A stretch of DNA of 39,481 nt from an uncultured Alphaproteobacteria bacterium (lineage in GTDB: Bacteria; Pseudomonadota; Alphaproteobacteria; Parvibaculales; Parvibaculaceae), in NCBI GenBank assembly GCA_903889655.1, contig CAISYL010000076.1:1-39481 (forward strand), in the 5' to 3' direction. Positions 2,077-22,884 of this stretch are shown here, piece after piece. Below the pieces are notes generated by a model. That model saw only the letters and a program-made list of their open reading frames with translations, was not told the origin of the DNA and made no database searches. The position numbers were made by a program, and so were the translations under genes. Every line of letters begins with the position of its first letter. The first letter of the stretch is position 1.

Positions 2077-3936
2077 TTGTCGAAACAAATCCGATATTTG
2101 CCGGGCGCGTGGCCTGAGCTGAAAGCCATCGCCCTTGTCTGGATTGTGGGTGTGGCGATCGCGGCCACCCTCTTCCTTTTCATACATGGCCACTATCAGA
2201 CCATCGAGCGCCAGCGCTTCCAGCGCGACGCCGTCTATTACAGCACGCTTGTGACCGAGACTCTCGACCGGCAGGTTAATTCGCTGAAGTCCCTGCGGGC
2301 CTTCGTCGCCTCCCGCGACGTGACGCGCTGGGAATTCTCAGCCTTTGCGGGACAGACCCTGCCGACCAGCCACGGCTTCAAGGCGGTCCTCTGGGTCCCC
2401 GTCATTTCCAACACTGCCCGCAAGAGTTACGAGCAGAAATTCCAGCGTGACGGCCTCTATGGTCTGCGCATCCGCGAAATGAACGCCGCCCGCGAATATT
2501 CCATCGCTGCGGCGAGACCCGCCTACTTCCCGGTCACCTTTGTCGATCCTCTGGAAGGCAATCAGGATCTCATCGGCCTCGATCTCGCGACGGATCCCGA
2601 TTACCGCGATCTGCTCCAGCTGGCGGAACGGACAGACGGCCTTGCGGTATCTCCGCTGAAACGCGGCGCCTCCGGAAAGCATGCCGGCTCCTCCCTGCTC
2701 GTCGCGTTTCCCCTCCGCGCGTCGACGGACACCGCGGCGGCCAACAAGGAGAAGCCCGGACTGAAGGGTTTCGCCATCGGCATTCTGGACGTCGACGAAC
2801 TCGTCAAGTCGATCCTCCCGAGGACCGCACCCGTCGAGATGGAAGTCCGACCGGCGGAGGCCGGCTCGAGCGCGGCACCGGCCGACGCATGGCTCGCACA
2901 ATCGGCCTTTTCCCAATCGCAGGCCTTCGATGTCGCGAACCGGCATTTCGCTCTCTATGTCCGCTCGTCCGGCGAGACCGATGCGGCGACCGGTATCATG
3001 GTCGCATTGGCGTCAGCGCTTGGTGTGCTTCTGCTGACCGGGCTTTTGGCGCAGCACCTTCATAACGCGACGATCCATCATCAGGCCGTCGAACGCGCCG
3101 TCGTCGCACGCACCGCCGAATTGAATGCCGCGAATGCGGCGTTGCGCGACGAAATCGCAATGCGTCGTGAGGCGGAAGCCTCGCTTCGTCTCTCGAAAGA
3201 AAAGACGGAAGCCGCCGACCGCGCCAAATCGCAATTCCTCGCCAGAATGAGCCACAAGCTCAGGGCACCGCTCAATACGATCATCGGATTGTCGGACGAT
3301 ATGGTCCGCGAAGTCGAAGCAGGAAACGGCGCGGCGCGCATCCGCGGTTACGTCGAAAACGTCAACACAAGCGGCCTGACCTTGCTGCAACTGGTCAACG
3401 AACTGCTGGATCTCTCACAGCTGGACTCAAAGCTGATGCCGCTGAACGACGCGCCCGTCTCGGTCGCCGACGTCATCCGAGCAGCCAGCGGCAAGGTCAA
3501 GGCGCAAGCCAGATCCGCTGGGGTCTCGTTGACGACCCATTGTCCCGACGATCGTCTTTTCATACGGACCGACGAGCGCCTGCTCACCAAGGCCCTGGTC
3601 AATCTTCTGTCCAATGCCATTCAGTTCACGCCGTCTGGCGGCGATGCCGAACTCTTCGCCCGCCAAAATCGGGACGGATCGATCAGTCTCGTCATGAGAG
3701 ATACCGGTGTCGGCATTCCCTCCGACAAGATCGAGCAGGTGCTGGAGCCCTTCGTGCGCCTGCCCTCATCGCTGCCGCGCGAGCATGACGGAGCCGGGCT
3801 CGGTCTTTCCTTCGTCAATCGCGTGGCGCAGGTCTTCAGGTTCGACCTCTCCATCGAGAGCGAGAAAGGCGCCGGCACGCGCGTAACCCTGACCTGTCCG
3901 CCGGAGCGCGTCATCGACAAGACGCAGGCCGCCTGA
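2077..3936 (+). CDS. CHASE-domain sensor histidine kinase (orphan, PleC/DivJ-like DHp)
   Basis: A 619-residue membrane kinase. A transmembrane helix lies at about 17-37, a periplasmic CHASE-type sensor region at about 45-300, a second helix at about 304-325 and a coiled coil at about 335-385. HisKA follows at about 386-450 and HATPase at about 495-608, with N-box NLLSNAIQFTP, G1 DTGVGI and G2 GAGLGLS. The phosphoacceptor is His393, but the next residue, usually acidic, is Lys394 (SHKLRAPLN). The start is TTG at 2077, with AAGGTGG at 2064-2070 six bases before it. No response regulator is adjacent, and the stop overlaps the next gene (TGATG). The DHp region resembles the PleC/DivJ/PdhS group by eye, and a CtrA-like box lies upstream. 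The ligand is unknown. Confidence 0.85.
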   Translation: MSKQIRYLPGAWPELKAIALVWIVGVAIAATLFLFIHGHYQTIERQRFQRDAVYYSTLVTETLDRQVNSLKSLRAFVASRDVTRWEFSAFAGQTLPTSHGFKAVLWVPVISNTARKSYEQKFQRDGLYGLRIREMNAAREYSIAAARPAYFPVTFVDPLEGNQDLIGLDLATDPDYRDLLQLAERTDGLAVSPLKRGASGKHAGSSLLVAFPLRASTDTAAANKEKPGLKGFAIGILDVDELVKSILPRTAPVEMEVRPAEAGSSAAPADAWLAQSAFSQSQAFDVANRHFALYVRSSGETDAATGIMVALASALGVLLLTGLLAQHLHNATIHHQAVERAVVARTAELNAANAALRDEIAMRREAEASLRLSKEKTEAADRAKSQFLARMSHKLRAPLNTIIGLSDDMVREVEAGNGAARIRGYVENVNTSGLTLLQLVNELLDLSQLDSKLMPLNDAPVSVADVIRAASGKVKAQARSAGVSLTTHCPDDRLFIRTDERLLTKALVNLLSNAIQFTPSGGDAELFARQNRDGSISLVMRDTGVGIPSDKIEQVLEPFVRLPSSLPREHDGAGLGLSFVNRVAQVFRFDLSIESEKGAGTRVTLTCPPERVIDKTQAA

Positions 3937-5088: not shown

Positions 5089-6975
5089 TTAAGCCGGGTT
5101 TTCCTGTGTCTCCGCAGTCGCGCCGATGATTGCCGCCATCGCGCAGGATATGGCGGCGGCGAGCGCCAGATAGAATGCTGGCGCCAGAATGTCGCCGCTT
5201 CGCGCGATCAACCAGACGGCGACCATGGGCACCGTGCCGCCGAAGATCGACAGCGCGAGATTGTAGCCGACCGACAACCCCGAACAGCGCACATGCTTGG
5301 GGAAAGCCTCGACCATAAAAGCCGGGCTCGCGCCGGTGAAGCAGGCCATCAGCATCGCAAAACCTGCTTGCCCCGCCAGGATTGCAGGAATGGTCGCATG
5401 GCTCATCAGCCAGAAGATCGGCCAGGCGAAGACGACGATCCCCGCCGTGCCGAGAAGCAGCATCGGCTTGCGCCCGATCCGGTCGGAGAGGATGCCGGCC
5501 AGCGGCGTCAGGACCATCAGCAGAGCGAGCGCCACGCTGTTGAGCGCCAGCGCAGTCGCTTGCGGGATATGGTCGATCTGCTTCAGCCATGTCGTCACAT
5601 AGACGAAGCACAGATAGAAGCCGATGCCGTTCGCAAGGTTGAGGCCGACGACCTTCAGGATTGTCCGCCACTGCGTCCGGAAGGCCTCGACGATGGGCGA
5701 GCTTCGCGCCTCTTCATTCGCGACGACGGCCTCCTCCGGCGGCAAACGCCTGCGGACCACATAGACGACAATGCCGATCAGCAGGCCGGTCAGGAAAGCC
5801 ACACGCCAGCCCCAGGCGGCCGACGCATCCGCCGAGAGAAGCGACGTGACCGTCGCGCCAACCGCCGAACCGAGCAGCAATCCGCCAAAGGCACCGAAGG
5901 GCGCGAAACTGCCGACGCGACCGCGCCGTCGCGGCTGCGCCTCCTCGACCAGCAGCACCATCGAAGTCGTGTATTCGCCGCCAACGGCAAGCCCCTGCAC
6001 CAGCCGAAGCAGGATCAGCAGCACCGGCGCGAAGACGCCGATCTGCTCATAGGTCGGCAGCAGACCCATCAGGAAGGTCGGCACCACCATCATCAGCACG
6101 GAAGCGATGACGGCCGTACGGCGTCCGAGCTGGTCGCCGACATGTCCGAACAGAAGTCCGCCCATGGGTCGCGCGACGAAGCCGACGGCAAAGACACCGA
6201 AAGATGCCAGCAGCGAAACGGCGGGATCGTGCGACGGGAAAAACTGATGGCCGATCGCCTCGGCAAAGAAGCCGTAGACGCCGAAGTCGTACCACTCCAT
6301 GACGTTTCCCGCGAGACCGGCCAGCACCGTACGGCGCTCGCCTGCCTTCAATTCGATACTCATGGTCTCGGCGGTGCGCGCGATCTCGCCGCCGATGAGA
6401 TCCATCCGGCGCAATTGATGAATGCGCGGCCGGGCCCTTTCGAGCTCCTTCGGCATCAGGATGCGATCGAAGATCGAGCAGGCATCGGCAAGTGCAACAA
6501 GCGCTGCGTCACGCGGATCGGGAATGTCGTCGTTGAAAAGGAGCGCGAGAATACGGCGTTTGGCCTCCGGCCGCTCCTGCCCGTCGACGAGCGGATAACG
6601 CCGTCCCTTCAGTACCCAGAGATAGGCCTGATCTTCCTGCCGGAGAATGCCACCCTGGCAAAGCTGCCGCACGGCGGCGTCCCGAATGGCAAGCCCTCTT
6701 ACCGATAGCCGCGCGATCCACGCCTTCGCATCGAGCCGCAAGGGCTCGGCTGCGATCTCCGCCAGAACGCCGTCGAGAACCGCATCTCCCGTCGGGGCCG
6801 TATCGACCGCCCACAAGGCCCGCAGATCGGAATCGATCCTGTTCCGGAGCGACAGATCCATCAGCGCTGCGCCAGCGACACCGCAATTGAGCTGGATATC
6901 CGGCACCTTGTCGAACTCGCCGCCGCCATCCTCGAGGGCCAACAGCAGAAATTCCTCAACGAGACTGATCGACAT
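5089..6975 (-). CDS. GPP34 (GOLPH3/Vps74-like) domain fused to an MFS metabolite:H+ symporter
   Basis: One uninterrupted 628-residue protein. Residues about 5-200 look like a GPP34 domain: LVEEFLLLALED at the start, then LNCGVAGAALMDLSLRNRI, APTGDAVLD, a GGILR segment and the DPRDAALVALADA helix. Residues about 215-620 form a 12-helix MFS transporter of the ProP/MHS type, with GNVMEWYDFGVYGFFA in helix 1, GDQLGRRTAVI in the loop after helix 2 and RLVQGLAVGGEY in helix 4. The substrate cannot be told. An ATG at 7041 is in frame but lacks a ribosome site and would add 22 residues ahead of the domain; 6975 is preceded by a G-run. An internal ATG at 6363 could yield the transporter alone. The fusion is unusual. 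Each half is well supported; functional coupling is inferred. Confidence 0.85.
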   Translation of the reverse strand: MSISLVEEFLLLALEDGGGEFDKVPDIQLNCGVAGAALMDLSLRNRIDSDLRALWAVDTAPTGDAVLDGVLAEIAAEPLRLDAKAWIARLSVRGLAIRDAAVRQLCQGGILRQEDQAYLWVLKGRRYPLVDGQERPEAKRRILALLFNDDIPDPRDAALVALADACSIFDRILMPKELERARPRIHQLRRMDLIGGEIARTAETMSIELKAGERRTVLAGLAGNVMEWYDFGVYGFFAEAIGHQFFPSHDPAVSLLASFGVFAVGFVARPMGGLLFGHVGDQLGRRTAVIASVLMMVVPTFLMGLLPTYEQIGVFAPVLLILLRLVQGLAVGGEYTTSMVLLVEEAQPRRRGRVGSFAPFGAFGGLLLGSAVGATVTSLLSADASAAWGWRVAFLTGLLIGIVVYVVRRRLPPEEAVVANEEARSSPIVEAFRTQWRTILKVVGLNLANGIGFYLCFVYVTTWLKQIDHIPQATALALNSVALALLMVLTPLAGILSDRIGRKPMLLLGTAGIVVFAWPIFWLMSHATIPAILAGQAGFAMLMACFTGASPAFMVEAFPKHVRCSGLSVGYNLALSIFGGTVPMVAVWLIARSGDILAPAFYLALAAAISCAMAAIIGATAETQENPA

Positions 6976-7095
6976 GTTCGCCCCCCGGCCATTTCCGGAA
7001 AGTCTATCCTGTCGGGCAGGTTCCGTCTCCTCCTCGCGCATGGGAAAGACTGGGCGAAAATCGCCTCTCTCGTCCGCTGTCCTGCGGGGGGATAC

Positions 7096-7144: not shown

Positions 7145-7492
7145 TCAGATCGCCGCCGTGACCTGAACTTCCGCTTTCCATTCCGGCTTGACCAGCGGCG
7201 ACTGTACGCAGGCACGCGCCGGTAGGTTCTGCGGATCGACCCAGGCATCCCACACTTCGTTGAAGACGCCATAGTCGTTCATGTCGGCAAGCCAGATCTG
7301 CACGAAGATCAGCTTCGACTTGTCGGTGCCGGCTTCGGCGAGCAGCGCGTCGATCTGCGCGAGGATCTGTTGTGCCTGGCCGCGGATCGCCACCGACGCA
7401 TCCTCCGCTACCTGTCCGGCAAGGAAAACGCGATCTCCATGCACGACCGCCTCGCTCAACCGCTTGCCTACGCCCAATCGCCGGATCGTCAT
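7145..7492 (-). CDS. RidA family protein (YjgF/YER057c/UK114)
   Basis: With the start at 7492 the protein has 115 residues, the usual size for this family. Typical segments are VFLAGQVAEDA, the ILAQIDALLAEAGTDKSKL helix, and PARACVQSPLVKPEWKAEVQ with the conserved Arg of the active-site pocket. RidA enzymes hydrolyse reactive enamine/imine intermediates from PLP enzymes; non-archetypal subgroups may do other chemistry, and this one resembles the YoaB-like group. GGAG sits 6 bases before the ATG at 7492. In-frame ATGs at 7504 and 7513 are possible but have weaker sites. The gene is bracketed by two terminators, so it is probably monocistronic. Confidence 0.85.
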   Translation of the reverse strand: MTIRRLGVGKRLSEAVVHGDRVFLAGQVAEDASVAIRGQAQQILAQIDALLAEAGTDKSKLIFVQIWLADMNDYGVFNEVWDAWVDPQNLPARACVQSPLVKPEWKAEVQVTAAI

Positions 7493-7576
7493 GCCCTGCT
7501 CCATCCTGTTCATCGCCGTCTCTGCGGCGCGCTCTGATAGCAGTCCGGCACACCGCCACGCAACGATAAAGCAGAT

Positions 7577-7608
7577 AAACAAAAAGGCGGTCCGCAAGGA
7601 CCGCCTTT
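7577..7608 (-). terminator. Intrinsic terminator after the HU gene
   Basis: A perfect 11-bp stem (AAAGGCGGTCC at 7583-7593 with its complement at 7598-7608) and a 4-base loop are followed on the minus strand by TTTTTGTTT. It lies about 60 bases beyond the HU stop. Confidence 0.9.
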
Positions 7609-9811: not shown

Positions 9812-11668
9812 ATGTCCATTCGTCTTCGTATCTGGTTTCTCCAAGGCGGCTTCATCGTTGCGCTCGCGGCGTTCAGTGTCCTGCTGCACTGGGCATTCCT
9901 CTCCTATGAAAATCGGGTGAGCGAAAATCGCGCGGCATTGACTGCTGTGGCCGAGGCGCAGGCGACGCTGTCCGCGCTCAAGGATGCAGAGATGACCCAG
10001 CGCGCGTTTTTAATAACGGGCGAGCGCCAATCACTCGACGCCTATGAAGCTGCACGGCAAGATCTTCAGTCGGGCATTCTCGAATTGAGAGCTCTTGCAA
10101 ATGCCGAAGCCCGTCCCGTCTATGAAGCCGATACGCTATCGATGATCGCATCGAGCCGTCTGGTGCGGCTCGAGGAAGGCATCCGGCAACGCAAGCTTCA
10201 TCGTTTGACGCCGGCCGGACTCCAGATCGCCGTCGACGTGAACGACGCCGACGCTACGCAGACCCATGCGGCCATTGACAACATCATCTCCACGCAGCAG
10301 TCGCGGGTAATCGAAACGCGCGAGCAGCTCGACGCGGGCAGCAGCCGCGTCCTCGAAGTCATTAGACTCGGTATCGCCACGGTCGTTCTGATTGCGATCT
10401 TCCTCGTCATCGTGACCTACGGCTTCGTCTCTCGTCCCCTGCGTGCACTCGCGGTGGGCCTCGACAGCATCAGCCGCAACGAAAGTCCGGGCGCTATCGC
10501 CATTCCCGGTGGCGACGAACTGAGCCTGGTGGCGGAAGCATTCAATCGTCTGGCGGACGATCTGCGTCGGGCCGAGAAAACGCGGCATGAAACCGAAGGT
10601 GAGCTCAGCCGCAGCAATGATCAACTCATTGCGCGAAATGCCGAAGTGACTGCCCGCACCCGCTCGATCGACCTTCTCGGTCGCATGGCTTATCGCCTGC
10701 CCGGCTGCACAAACACCGGCGAATTCGCGGCTCTTGTGGAACGCTTTGCACCACAACTCTTTCCAGGCATTCCCGGCGCGCTCTACATTCTGTCCGGCTC
10801 TCACACGATGCTGAACGATATGGCGCAATGGGGTAACCCCAAGGGAGCGCTACCGGAATTCGGTCCACAGGACTGCTGGGGGCTACGCCGCGGCCAGGCG
10901 CATGAAATCGAGAACGTATCCGTCGACGTCGTCTGCAACCATGTCAGGCGCGAATCCGTGCTCGGTTATCGCTGCATTCCGCTGGTCGCCCAGAGCGAGA
11001 CCGTCGGCCTCCTTTATCTGGAGCGCACCGATGAGACAGTGCCATGGGCCATCGAAGAACATGATCTGCGTGTGCTCGCCGAGACGTTGGCACTGGCCCT
11101 CGTCAACCTGAAGCTGCGCGAATCCTTGCACGAACAATCCATCCGCGATCCGCTGACGGGTCTCTTCAACCGCCGCTATCTGACGGAAGCGTTGGAACTC
11201 GAAGAGGCCCGCGCGGACCGCAAGGAGACTTCGATCGCCGCGATCATGATCGACATCGACCACTTCAAGAGATTCAACGATGAATTCGGGCACGACGCAG
11301 GCGATGCGGTGTTGCGTTGCCTCGCCGATACGATGACGCATCATGTCCGGGCGGGCGATGTGATATGCAGGTTCGGTGGCGAGGAGTTCATTATCGTCCA
11401 GCCCGGCGGCACGCTCGACCGCGCCAGCGCCTGCGCCGAAGAGCTGCGCCAGGCGGTCGAAGCGCTAGCCCTCATGCATCATGGAAAGTCTCTCGGACGC
11501 GTCACTATTTCGCTAGGCGTGGCGGTGCTGCCCGATTGCGCATCGACGACGAAGGACCTGCTGGAAGCCGCCGACCACGCCCTTTATGCGGCGAAACATG
11601 CGGGACGCAATCGCGTCGAAACTGCGGCTCGAACAATGATCACGCAGCAGACCGCGCTCGCATCCTGA
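9812..11668 (+). CDS. Membrane diguanylate cyclase: CHASE3-HAMP-GAF-GGDEF
   Basis: 618 residues. A transmembrane helix at about 11-31 is followed by a CHASE3-type helical sensor (about 35-180, with the DAEMTQRAFLITGE signature) and a second helix at about 183-205. Next come HAMP (about 206-255), a GAF-like region (about 290-435) and GGDEF (about 440-605). The active site is GGEEF at 522-526. RAGD at 513-516, five residues before it, is an intact inhibitory I-site, so the enzyme should make c-di-GMP and be product-inhibited. There is no EAL domain. The stop abuts the convergent phosphatase gene with no spacer. The signal is unknown. Confidence 0.9.
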   Translation: MSIRLRIWFLQGGFIVALAAFSVLLHWAFLSYENRVSENRAALTAVAEAQATLSALKDAEMTQRAFLITGERQSLDAYEAARQDLQSGILELRALANAEARPVYEADTLSMIASSRLVRLEEGIRQRKLHRLTPAGLQIAVDVNDADATQTHAAIDNIISTQQSRVIETREQLDAGSSRVLEVIRLGIATVVLIAIFLVIVTYGFVSRPLRALAVGLDSISRNESPGAIAIPGGDELSLVAEAFNRLADDLRRAEKTRHETEGELSRSNDQLIARNAEVTARTRSIDLLGRMAYRLPGCTNTGEFAALVERFAPQLFPGIPGALYILSGSHTMLNDMAQWGNPKGALPEFGPQDCWGLRRGQAHEIENVSVDVVCNHVRRESVLGYRCIPLVAQSETVGLLYLERTDETVPWAIEEHDLRVLAETLALALVNLKLRESLHEQSIRDPLTGLFNRRYLTEALELEEARADRKETSIAAIMIDIDHFKRFNDEFGHDAGDAVLRCLADTMTHHVRAGDVICRFGGEEFIIVQPGGTLDRASACAEELRQAVEALALMHHGKSLGRVTISLGVAVLPDCASTTKDLLEAADHALYAAKHAGRNRVETAARTMITQQTALAS

Positions 11669-15266: not shown

Positions 15267-16661
15267 TCAGAGGGGCATATCGGGGCGCGTCGTCGTGGCA
15301 ACGCCGAGCGACTTCAGCTTGCGATGAAGCGCCGACCGCTCCATACCGATGAAGGCCGCCGTGCGCGAGATATTGCCGCCGAAGCGGCTGATCTGCGCCA
15401 TCAGATATTCCCGTTCGAAAGTCTCGCGCGCCTCGCGCAGCGGGAGCGCCATGATGTGTTCGCCGCCCGATCCGTTGACCGTGATCTGCGCCGAAGAGCC
15501 GACTTCCGACGGCAGCATATCCGCCGTCACGACGGCACTCGAATCGCCCGTTGTCAGAATGAGCAGGCGCTCCACATTGTTGCGCAACTGGCGGACATTG
15601 CCCGGCCAGTCATGCGCCTGCAGCGCCGCCATGGCATCTTCCGAGATGCGGCGCGGCGGCAAACCGGTCGCCCGCGAAATCTGCGCCATGAAATATTCGA
15701 CCAGCATCGGAATATCTTCCCGGCGTGCCGAAAGCGGCGGCACCTGGATCGGCACCACGTTGAGCCGGTGGTAGAGATCTTCGCGGAAACGGCCCTTTGA
15801 GATTTCCTCCTGAAGATCGCGGCTCGACGAGGAAACAACCCGGACGTCGACCTTGACCTTCGGTCCGCCGCCGACGCGCTCGAAGGTCTGGTCGACCAGC
15901 ACACGCAGGATCTTGCTCTGCGTCTCGATCGGCATCTCGGCCACTTCATCGAGGAAAAGCGTGCCGCCATGCGCCTGCTCGAACACGCCGACCTTGCGCG
16001 GACCCGTTGCGGACGCCTCCGTACCGAAGAGTTCAATCTCCATGCGTTCCGGCGCCATGGTGGCCGTATTGATCGCGATGAAGGCGTGGTCGGAACGCCG
16101 CGACCGCGCATGCAGAAGACGCGCGACGATCTCCTTGCCGGACCCCGACGGTCCGGTGATGAGAACCCGGCTGCCCGTCGGCGCGACCTTGTCGATGGTC
16201 TGGCGCACATGGGCGATTGCCGACGACAAGCCGACCAGCGTCGTATCGTCGCCGATGCGCGTCCGCAGTTCGTCGTTCTCGCGACGAAGCTTGTAGGCCT
16301 CGATGGCGCGCCGGACGATGAGAATGAGCCGATCGGCCTTGAACGGCTTCTCGATGAAGTCGTAGGCGCCCTTCTTGATCGCCGAGACGGCGGTCTCGAC
16401 GTTGCCATGTCCGCTGATGATGACGACCGGCAGATCGGGATGCCGTTCGTGAATGACGTCCAGCACCTCGAGCCCGTCGAGACGACTGCCCTGAAGCCAG
16501 ATGTCGAGCACGACGAGGCCCGGCCGCCGCGCCTCGATGGACGTGAGCGCGCCGTCGCTGTCGCCCGCGACACGCGTGTCGTATCCCTCGTCGTTCAGGA
16601 TTCCCGCAACGAGTTCACGGATATCCGCCTCGTCATCGACAATGAGAATGTCAGATGCCAT
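15267..16661 (-). CDS. ntrX: Response regulator NtrX
   Basis: 464 residues. A receiver domain (1-120) has the phosphoacceptor Asp53 in VVLDIWLQG and Lys105. An AAA+ domain (about 140-370) has Walker A GPSGSGKE at 170-177 and a Walker B-type TLFLDEV. A Fis-type helix-turn-helix at about 415-455 has NISRTAAFIGMERSALHRKL. The loop that should read GAFTGA is instead LFGTEASATGPRKVG (211-225), so contact with sigma-54 is unlikely to be canonical; this agrees with NtrX proteins of other alphaproteobacteria. It is the partner of NtrY in nitrogen and redox/respiration control. The ATG lies within the end of ntrY (11-base overlap). Confidence 0.94.
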   Translation of the reverse strand: MASDILIVDDEADIRELVAGILNDEGYDTRVAGDSDGALTSIEARRPGLVVLDIWLQGSRLDGLEVLDVIHERHPDLPVVIISGHGNVETAVSAIKKGAYDFIEKPFKADRLILIVRRAIEAYKLRRENDELRTRIGDDTTLVGLSSAIAHVRQTIDKVAPTGSRVLITGPSGSGKEIVARLLHARSRRSDHAFIAINTATMAPERMEIELFGTEASATGPRKVGVFEQAHGGTLFLDEVAEMPIETQSKILRVLVDQTFERVGGGPKVKVDVRVVSSSSRDLQEEISKGRFREDLYHRLNVVPIQVPPLSARREDIPMLVEYFMAQISRATGLPPRRISEDAMAALQAHDWPGNVRQLRNNVERLLILTTGDSSAVVTADMLPSEVGSSAQITVNGSGGEHIMALPLREARETFEREYLMAQISRFGGNISRTAAFIGMERSALHRKLKSLGVATTTRPDMPL

Positions 16662-21429: not shown

Positions 21430-22872
21430 TTACTTCAGGCCACGGATCACCTGCACGTCGAGGTCCTTCAGCTTCTTGCGAAGCGTATTCCGGTTGATGC
21501 CGAGAAGATGCGCCGCCTTGATCTGGTTGCCGCGCGTGGCAGCCAGCGTCATACCGAAAAGCGGCTTCTCGACTTCCCTCAGAATGCGATCGTAGAGACC
21601 GGGCGGTGGCAACGCGTCGCCATGCTGGGCGAAGAGCCTGTTGAGCGAACGCTCCACTGACGAAGCCAGCGGCTCATCGGTCGGAGCCTGCTCCAGCGGC
21701 CGGCCGAAATCGGGCTCCGCAAGCTCGGTCTCAAGCACCGAGGCGCCGATCATTTCCTCCGTATAGAGGGCAGCGAGGCGGCGCACGAGGTTTTCAAGCT
21801 CGCGCACATTGCCCGGCCAGCGATAACGCTTCAGAAGCTCCATGCCCTCGGCATCGATGGTCTTGGGCGGCAGCCCCTCCTCCTCGGCCTGATTGAGGAA
21901 ATGCCGGACGAGATCCGGAATATCTTCAGTCCGCTCCCGCAATGGGGGCAATCGGATCGGTACGACATTGAGACGGAAGAACAGGTCTTCGCGGAAGAGA
22001 CCGAGATTGATGAGCTGTCGCAGGTCGCGATTGGTCGCCGCGACGATGCGCACATCGGTCTTGATCGGCGTGCGCCCGCCGACGGTCGTGTATTCGCCCT
22101 GCTGCAACACGCGCAGAAGCCGCGTCTGGGCTTCCATCGGCATGTCGCCGATTTCGTCGAGAAAGAGCGTACCGCCTTCCGCCTGTTCGAAGCGGCCGGT
22201 CGCCCGCTGGCTGGCGCCGGTGAAGGCGCCCTTCTCATGGCCGAAAAGTTCGCTCTCGATCAGCTCGCGCGGAATTGCCGCCATGTTGATCGCAACGAAG
22301 GGCCCGTTGCGGCGCTTGCCGTAATCGTGCAGCGCGCGGGCGACAAGTTCCTTTCCGGTGCCGCTCTCGCCCGAGATCATGACGGTGAGATCGGTCTGCA
22401 TCAGGCGCGCAAGCACACGATAGATGTCCTGCATCGCCGGCGAGCGGCCGATGAGCGGCATCTTTTCGTCTTCCTGCGCATTCTGGCGCGGCACCGCACT
22501 TTCGCGCGGCGCCGTCATCGCCCGGTCGACGACGCGGATCAGCTCGTTGAGATCGAAGGGCTTCGGCAGATATTCGTAAGCCCCGCGCTCCGCCGCCGTG
22601 ATCGCCGTCTTCAGCGTATTTTGCGCGCTCATGACGATGATCGGAAGCTCCGGCCGAGCACGTTTGATACGGGGGATCAGGTCGAAAGCGTTCTCGTCCG
22701 GCATCACGACGTCGGTGATGATGAGATCTCCGTCTCCTTGCGCCACCCAGCGCCACAGCGTCGCGGCGTTGCTGGTCGCGCGCACGTCGTAGCCAACCCG
22801 GCCCAGCGCCTGGTTGAGGACGGTGCGGATCGCCGCGTCGTCGTCTGCGAGAAGAATCGTGCCGCTCGGCAT
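21430..22872 (-). CDS. ntrC: Nitrogen regulator NtrC (sigma-54-dependent activator)
   Basis: 480 residues. The receiver domain has Asp54 in [10 protein letters not shown]. The AAA+ domain has Walker A GESGTGKE at 168-175, an intact GAFTGA loop at 215-220 and Walker [12 protein letters not shown]. The C-terminal Fis helix-turn-helix reads [20 protein letters not shown]. It activates sigma-54 promoters for nitrogen assimilation when phosphorylated by NtrB. It begins 12 bases after ntrB. Unlike the NtrX in this window, every residue needed for sigma-54 contact is present. Confidence 0.96.
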
Positions 22873-22884
22873 GGAAGAAAACTC

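Follow-up and report, generated by a model that had tools for sequence, protein, structure and literature searches.

A GOLPH3-like GPP34 domain fused to an MFS transporter in Alphaproteobacteria and its possible link to partner switching

The fusion gene and its two halves

The stretch of DNA analysed here (the window) comprises 39,481 nucleotides of an alphaproteobacterial contig (CAISYL010000076.1) and contains a gene in which a GOLPH3-like GPP34 domain and an MFS transporter are encoded in one frame, downstream of a RidA-type gene (Table 1). The frame from 5089 to 6975 has no internal stop. As listed, the open reading frame reaches a further upstream ATG at 7041; the start at 6975 is supported by the relatives, since in most of them an in-frame start codon lies close, by a few residues, to a conserved SLIEEFLLL stretch, and at L034, L035, L039 and L042 an alternative start 10-20 residues earlier is possible. 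Two signalling genes, a CHASE-domain histidine kinase (2077-3936) and a CHASE3-HAMP-GAF-GGDEF diguanylate cyclase (9812-11665), are found near the fusion; nothing ties either of them to it.

Table 1. Features of the fusion locus, in window coordinates
Feature	Position	Strand	Details
GPP34::MFS fusion gene	5089..6975	minus	628 aa; ATG at 6975, stop 5089-5091
GPP34 (GOLPH3-like) domain, residues 5-200	6376..6963	minus	Pfam 130.9 bits; GOLPH3/Vps74 fold match, Z 16.4-17.8
Short helical connector, residues 201-222	6310..6375	minus	Alignment; helix 193-222 in model
MFS transporter, nearest to MHS (metabolite/H+ symporter) type, residues 223-610	5146..6309	minus	TIGR00883 below cut-off; MFS fold
RidA-type gene (Ribonuc_L-PSP), upstream of fusion	7145..7597	minus, same strand	Ends 169 bp before fusion start

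The assignment of the N-terminal part to GPP34, made in a preliminary description of this DNA, holds against the profile: PF05719 is matched with an E-value of 8.6e-38, above the Pfam cut-off of 29.1 bits. In a phmmer search of the domain against PDB chains, GOLPH3 and Vps74 came out on top (E 9.2e-6 to 4.8e-5). A fold search with the full-length model returned MFS chains, so the GPP34 domain was modelled and searched separately. The resulting AlphaFold2 model of residues 1-210, built without templates from 12 fusion sequences (mean pLDDT 77.8), matched five GOLPH3/Vps74 entries at the Z-scores of Table 1, the next fold following at 2.8; at the level of prediction, this agrees with the GOLPH3-like fold that had been proposed. 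The full-length AlphaFold2 model (11 sequences, mean pLDDT 71.4) is of moderate confidence and too weak for an interface to be read from it. Its transporter part adopts an MFS fold (Z up to 38), and a single helix, residues 193-222, runs from the GPP34 domain towards the transporter. Within the connector, the basic residues R214-R215 precede the first membrane helix. By the usual MFS topology, the GPP34 half should be cytosolic, with a single helix between it and the first membrane helix.

The C-terminal part scores 118.5 bits with Sugar_tr and 108.6 bits with MFS_1 (cut-off 33.4) in Pfam. Its best NCBIfam match is TIGR00883, with ProP and TcuC scoring next; the alignment covers residues 223-610 and model positions 1-399 of 400, at 379.1 bits and thus below the curated cut-off of 443.45; all of the 25 NCBIfam models listed score under their own cut-offs. 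By this criterion, MHS is the nearest subfamily, and the protein is not assigned to TIGR00883 as a member. Judged by its modelled fold, the MFS half is an ordinary symporter.

According to the accessible part of PMC4414131, the PI4P pocket of GOLPH3 is formed by W81, R90, R171 and R174. A low-identity alignment places V24, A34, L95 and R98 of the window protein at these positions. Low-identity alignments likewise put no tryptophan at the W81 equivalent and no arginine at the R90 equivalent in any of 58 GPP34 domains, a tryptophan one position before the W81 equivalent being found in three of them, none a fusion. The R171 position is an arginine in 4 of the 58 domains and in none of the 13 fusions, and the R174 position is arginine or lysine in 42 of the 58 domains, including all 13 fusions. 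Because the W81 and R90 equivalents are missing throughout, the canonical pocket is, as far as these alignments indicate, unlikely to serve a PI4P-like function, and PI4P binding through that pocket was set aside as unsupported. Other basic positions are widespread: R125, K139 and R141 are basic in 13/13 fusions, and among the 58 domains R125 is found in 48, K/R139 in 51 and R141 in 53. An N-terminal arginine cluster that binds COPI is a feature of GOLPH3/Vps74 in the same part of PMC4414131; such an arginine tail is absent from the fusion, where the GPP34 domain begins at residue 5. The earlier suggestion that the domain binds lipid or regulates transport has to be divided: the pocket residues do not support PI4P-like sensing, whereas a role in regulating transport is consistent with the genes around some relatives.

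Spread and evolution of the fusion

The GPP34::MFS fusion was found at 13 loci, namely in the window, in G031 from the same genus (L165; 72% identity) and in 11 relatives (L033-L043, with L043 truncated by the contig end); the 11 are a lower bound, as the loci were chosen by six peptide patterns among the best 80 of 125 confirmed relatives. The record labels of L033-L043 include Methylocystis/Methylocystaceae, Caulobacteraceae, Rhodospirillales, Hyphomicrobiales and others. The record of L035 (CALQFM020000034.1) is titled Candidatus Kuenenia stuttgartiensis, a planctomycete, and appears identical to a contig of G300 from the class of the window; the title probably reflects a mislabelled bin. 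The three Methylocystaceae fusions (L037, L038 and L043) follow a beta-carbonic anhydrase gene, identified by Pfam in the L038 copy.

That a sequencing or assembly error has merged two separate genes is hardly conceivable: the same junction occurs at 12 further loci, nothing was found in favour of an error, and the recurrence in G031 and L033-L043 excludes chance or a local sequencing error. The continuous frame noticed in the preliminary description is thus a genuine fusion.

In a tree of 58 GPP34 domains, the 13 fusion domains form one clade (support 100/99). L188 was left out of this tree; the short contig G401:C8 (L161) and the partial matches G297:C1:645765 and G103:C202 had been removed ahead of all counts. 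For three close pairs (L037, L038, L043), the GPP34 half has dN of 0.072-0.132 and dS of 1.08-1.55, and the MFS half dN of 0.039-0.047 and dS of 0.88-1.08, which corresponds to dN/dS of 0.065-0.085 and 0.044-0.048, respectively (Nei-Gojobori count). Five wider pairs gave 0.13-0.24 for the GPP34 half and 0.13-0.25 for the MFS half, with dS near saturation; in the wider pairs, the rate of change of the GPP34 half equals or exceeds that of the MFS half (window and G031: dN 0.351 versus 0.184).

The fusion is rare in the genome samples: two of the 40 genomes sampled from the family have it and, besides G000 (the genome of the window), one of 385 genomes of the class sample (G300), where every GPP34 frame longer than 400 aa was scanned. 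Stand-alone GPP34 genes are present in four of the 40 family genomes (G000, G014, G030 and G031), and G033 has a match below the cut-off. With G000 included, GPP34 is carried by 29 of the 385 class genomes and by four of 299 in the phylum sample, three of the latter above the cut-off. The view that bacterial GPP34 proteins are mainly stand-alone and actinobacterial is too narrow in the light of these 29 genomes and of at least five architectures.

GPP34 is modular in this class, being fused to MFS, to cytochrome P450, to a membrane domain or to a domain of ~200 residues, besides the stand-alone forms; in the tree, each of the four fused types lies on one side of a supported branch. GPP34-P450 fusions were recognised with Pfam at L149-L153, and a sixth, shorter locus (L154, the same as L203) has no P450 match, its domain grouping in the clade of the GPP34-P450 domains. 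In this set (L198-L203; for example L198:5382-7484, minus strand), the five fusions and the shorter protein belong to one clade, and all six have a neighbouring gene that falls into one cluster, of the MMPL family (Pfam, L198 copy only); a LolA-like neighbour occurs in three of them (Pfam, L199 copy only). Membrane domains with 4-5 hydrophobic stretches are attached at L161-L163; those of L185, L192 and L161 are C-terminal and have recurrent histidines (LFAHTGFR and a C-terminal H), and they gave only weak Pfam matches below the cut-off, one of them to cytochrome b561. The ~200-residue domain at L157-L160 has no significant Pfam match, and nor does the C-terminal one at L190, L197, L207 and L209 (WEWRAFW...DRYLLI...DNIKMRKN); three of these four loci have a common neighbour of the chromate-transporter type (Pfam, L197 copy only). 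Long N-terminal parts at L148/L191, L155/L211 and L156/L204, which have no Pfam match besides GPP34, may be read-through of the open frame, and in the tallies below these loci belong to the 33 for which no partner domain was recognised.

Partner-switching genes around GPP34

Genes of partner-switching type are encoded near a part of the GPP34 genes. With HMMs that were built from the GPP34 loci themselves, STAS was found at 20 of 59 GPP34 loci and RsbW-like proteins at 15 of 59 (14 without L033), compared with 0 of 69 for both at loci of unfused MFS homologues, which span a wider taxonomic range and 685,024 bases (782,480 for the GPP34 loci). L188, on the same contig as L035, is included in the tally of 59 and left out of the distance tallies. 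A same-strand STAS domain lies within 152 bp (domain edge to edge) at 11 of the 33 loci where no fusion partner was recognised, as well as at the fusion L039; STAS is the tightest neighbour of GPP34. Among 17 sequences of neighbouring STAS proteins, 15 have the serine motif SSAG[LI]R and one has SSLGVR; we take this stretch to be the loop of the phosphorylated serine in SpoIIAA/RsbV. ATPase boxes were recognised by eye in nine neighbouring RsbW sequences.

A survey with PF13581 covered 25 genomes that had been picked for carrying GPP34, with G138, G153, G163, G206, G256, G266, G349, G616 and G553 as carriers outside it. Ten of the 34 strong RsbW-like genes (at least 64 bits, a threshold chosen after viewing the list) lie within 5 kb of GPP34, compared with 0.165 expected; the calculated probability overstates independence, because the ten are distributed over five groups at the family level, f1 accounting for four and f39 for three. 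In eight genomes (G000, G014, G030, G031, G077, G204, G300 and G384), the sole strong RsbW-like gene adjoins GPP34, and in 15 of the 25 surveyed genomes no strong RsbW-like gene lies beside it.

The arrangement varies between the fusion loci. RsbW, STAS and SpoIIE all lie within 6 kb of the fusion at 4 of 13 loci (L034, L036, L039 and L042). At L039, one unbroken same-strand run comprises SpoIIE, RsbW, a hybrid kinase (HK/RR), a response regulator (RR), STAS, a Na/Pi cotransporter, a second STAS and GPP34::MFS. The stop codon of the fusion is overlapped by the start of an RR-SpoIIE gene at L036 (TGATG), an RsbW domain starts 27 bp past the last codon of the fusion at L042, and the set is at least 3.6 kb away at L034. 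L041 has STAS only, on the opposite strand. Neither RsbW nor STAS was found at 7 of 13 fusion loci, which are the window (HMM scan of its whole length), L165 of G031 (in the DNA examined), L035, L037, L038, L040 and L043, with L037 and L043 on short or cut contigs; without L033 the count is 8 of 13. The L033 match to RsbW (E 1e-15, 554-aa frame, opposite strand) was, in our judgement, a histidine kinase and was discounted. Two matches in the window to PP2C (15270-16661 and 21433-22884) comprise only 117-135 residues near the frame start and were read as receiver domains, because the query protein also contains a receiver.

In G000 (C138), a stand-alone GPP34 gene is divergent from an RsbW-like HATPase_c_2 gene. 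Next come STAS, a membrane protein that belongs to no Pfam family, a Na/Pi cotransporter and another STAS, whose serine motif the motif search did not resolve; the stretch examined contains no SpoIIE. STAS and RsbW are absent from the surroundings of the 12 GPP34 loci whose partner domain is a P450, a membrane domain or of unknown type, and the HMMs detected neither at L212-L215 (Chroococcidiopsis and Streptomyces plasmids, one genome of the same class and one of the same phylum). An extension of the association to other phyla was dropped on account of L212-L215, and the claim is limited to the alphaproteobacterial sample. The link between GPP34 and partner switching is partial and lineage-limited, since many fusion loci, the partnered GPP34 loci, L212-L215 and the 15 of 25 genomes are without it. 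Among those neighbours that were scanned with Pfam, there is no sigma-factor gene.

A possible control element of transport and its alternatives

The fusion, the predicted folds, the conservation, the single clade, the gene linkage and the STAS and RsbW motifs are directly supported. Since GPP34 and STAS or RsbW are encoded together, with GPP34 standing alone and in part fused, we take GPP34 as a target of partner switching: with a probability of about 0.4, a partner-switching system controls the transporter by way of this domain, which would act in the cytosol as a module for docking or gating. Such control could proceed in the following manner: The N-terminal GPP34 domain, cytosolic by the usual MFS topology, would be the control element of an MFS metabolite symporter. 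In a fair share of the relatives, a partner-switching module is encoded together with GPP34, whether the latter is fused or stands alone; it consists of an RsbW-like kinase, a STAS protein that has the serine motif and a SpoIIE phosphatase to which a receiver or cNMP-binding domain is joined, and in some relatives a Na/Pi-type transporter is added. STAS (or RsbW), depending on its phosphorylation state, would dock on GPP34 beneath the membrane, and docking may open, close or stabilise the transporter. In the window genome (G000), the fusion may be served in trans by the one such module found elsewhere, beside a stand-alone GPP34 gene; the fusion would then represent the controlled transporter and its docking domain merged into one chain. 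From gene order we infer the role of partner switching; the contact of GPP34 with STAS or RsbW, the direction of control and the substrate are inferences as well. The regulatory reading gains support from the gene context, with the caution that the window locus and most other fusion loci do not have that context. In a broader and doubtful form, bacterial GPP34 would be a client domain of sigma-factor-independent partner switching, in which a phosphorylation-controlled STAS protein binds GPP34 and gates transporters post-translationally, in trans or built in; the GOLPH3 fold would then have served originally for signal-controlled docking to membrane-proximal parts of membrane proteins, and sorting in the Golgi would be a later use of it.

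Other roles of the domain are conceivable. Rather unlikely, in our estimate, is that GPP34 binds an anionic bacterial lipid at a site other than that of PI4P and tunes or positions the transporter by the state of the membrane, the link to partner switching being confined to some stand-alone proteins. The predicted GOLPH3 fold and the basic residues R125, K139 and R141 would suit such a role, as would the fusions of GPP34 to cytochrome P450s, where membrane binding would make sense (bacterial cytochrome P450s are mostly soluble). However, the W81 and R90 equivalents are missing, an MFS protein requires no membrane anchor, and complete partner-switching sets accompany four of the 13 fusions. GPP34 might instead clasp basic residues next to the membrane, either in its own transporter or in a partner one, in the manner of GOLPH3, which binds membrane-proximal basic residues of client tails (accessible part of PMC8421267), and thereby aid folding, oligomerisation or stability without any signalling. 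This is unlikely: R214 and R215 before the first membrane helix are indeed conserved in at least 90% of 11 fusions, and in the model one helix connects the GPP34 domain to that membrane helix, but an adjacent basic pair, within the 14 positions before the GNxxEW motif, is also present in 35 of 69 unfused homologues, for which reason the arginine pair was rejected as a hallmark of the fusion. Furthermore, the linkage to STAS and RsbW is left unexplained by a clasp, and the moderate confidence of the model permits no interface to be read.

It is very unlikely that GPP34 is a mere passenger without effect on transport. The rarity of the fusion in the family and class samples and the faster change of the GPP34 half in several pairs would be in keeping with neutrality, whereas dN well below dS in the GPP34 half and the maintenance of the fusion, in a single clade, among alphaproteobacterial bins of various names speak against it.

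Several known systems come close to the fusion or to its gene neighbourhoods. The eukaryotic PI4P effectors GOLPH3 and Vps74, known from Golgi sorting in animals and yeast, where they bind the cytosolic tails of glycosyltransferases, belong to the same PF05719 family and have the fold predicted for the window domain; in contrast to them, the window protein is without the W81/R90 equivalents and the COPI arginine tail, and it is fused to a transporter. The MHS transporters (TIGR00883) are the nearest subfamily of the transporter half and share its MFS fold, from which the window protein differs by a score under the curated cut-off and by the extra N-terminal GPP34 domain. In SulP/SLC26 transporters with a fused STAS domain, a transporter is likewise combined with a cytosolic domain tied to partner-switching proteins, but there STAS itself is fused, whereas in the present case it is GPP34 that is fused, with STAS encoded as a protein of its own near some relatives (accessible part of PMC8256260). 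By analogy, the SulP-fused STAS domain may be the nearest functional counterpart (PMC8256260, same part) and GOLPH3 on membrane-proximal basic tails the nearest molecular one (PMC8421267, same part). RsbU/RsbW/RsbV modules resemble the neighbourhoods of GPP34 genes in having a SpoIIE phosphatase, a HATPase_c_2 kinase and a STAS protein with the serine motif; the latter differ by the presence of transporters and GPP34 and by the lack of a sigma-factor gene among the Pfam-scanned neighbours.

A bacterial GPP34 protein like the window domain is SCO4440 of Streptomyces coelicolor, studied together with SCO4439, which has a carboxypeptidase domain, in wall-deficient cells; in the accessible part of that paper (PMC12402492), GOLPH3-like proteins are said to be undescribed in prokaryotes, and there is no transporter or partner switching. 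A search of the open-access literature found neither a paper describing a GPP34-transporter fusion nor one that connects GPP34 with STAS or partner switching, and no molecular function established for any GPP34 protein of prokaryotes, in agreement with the preliminary statement that no role of this architecture has been described; InterPro may have a listing of GPP34 with MFS. The name 'Gpp34' is also used in the literature for an unrelated insecticidal protein. The gene context that links GPP34 with partner switching is new, and the data suggest that a transporter of known type carries a domain newly recognised as a candidate regulator.

The fused transporter provides the GPP34 domain with a measurable output, transport, and the adjacent partner-switching genes name candidate binding partners; what a bacterial GOLPH3-like domain does can therefore be put to a direct test. 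If true, the proposed control would add a route by which partner switching acts directly on transport, and it would hint at a job of the GOLPH3 fold before the Golgi existed.

A further component may accompany some of these systems. At three loci with GPP34 and partner-switching genes, a frame of 247-275 aa lies beside the Na/Pi cotransporter (L166:12096-12836, L194:5824-6597 and L195:7300-8124). The encoded protein belongs to no significant Pfam family and has two hydrophobic stretches in the L166 copy; it is possibly a sensor.
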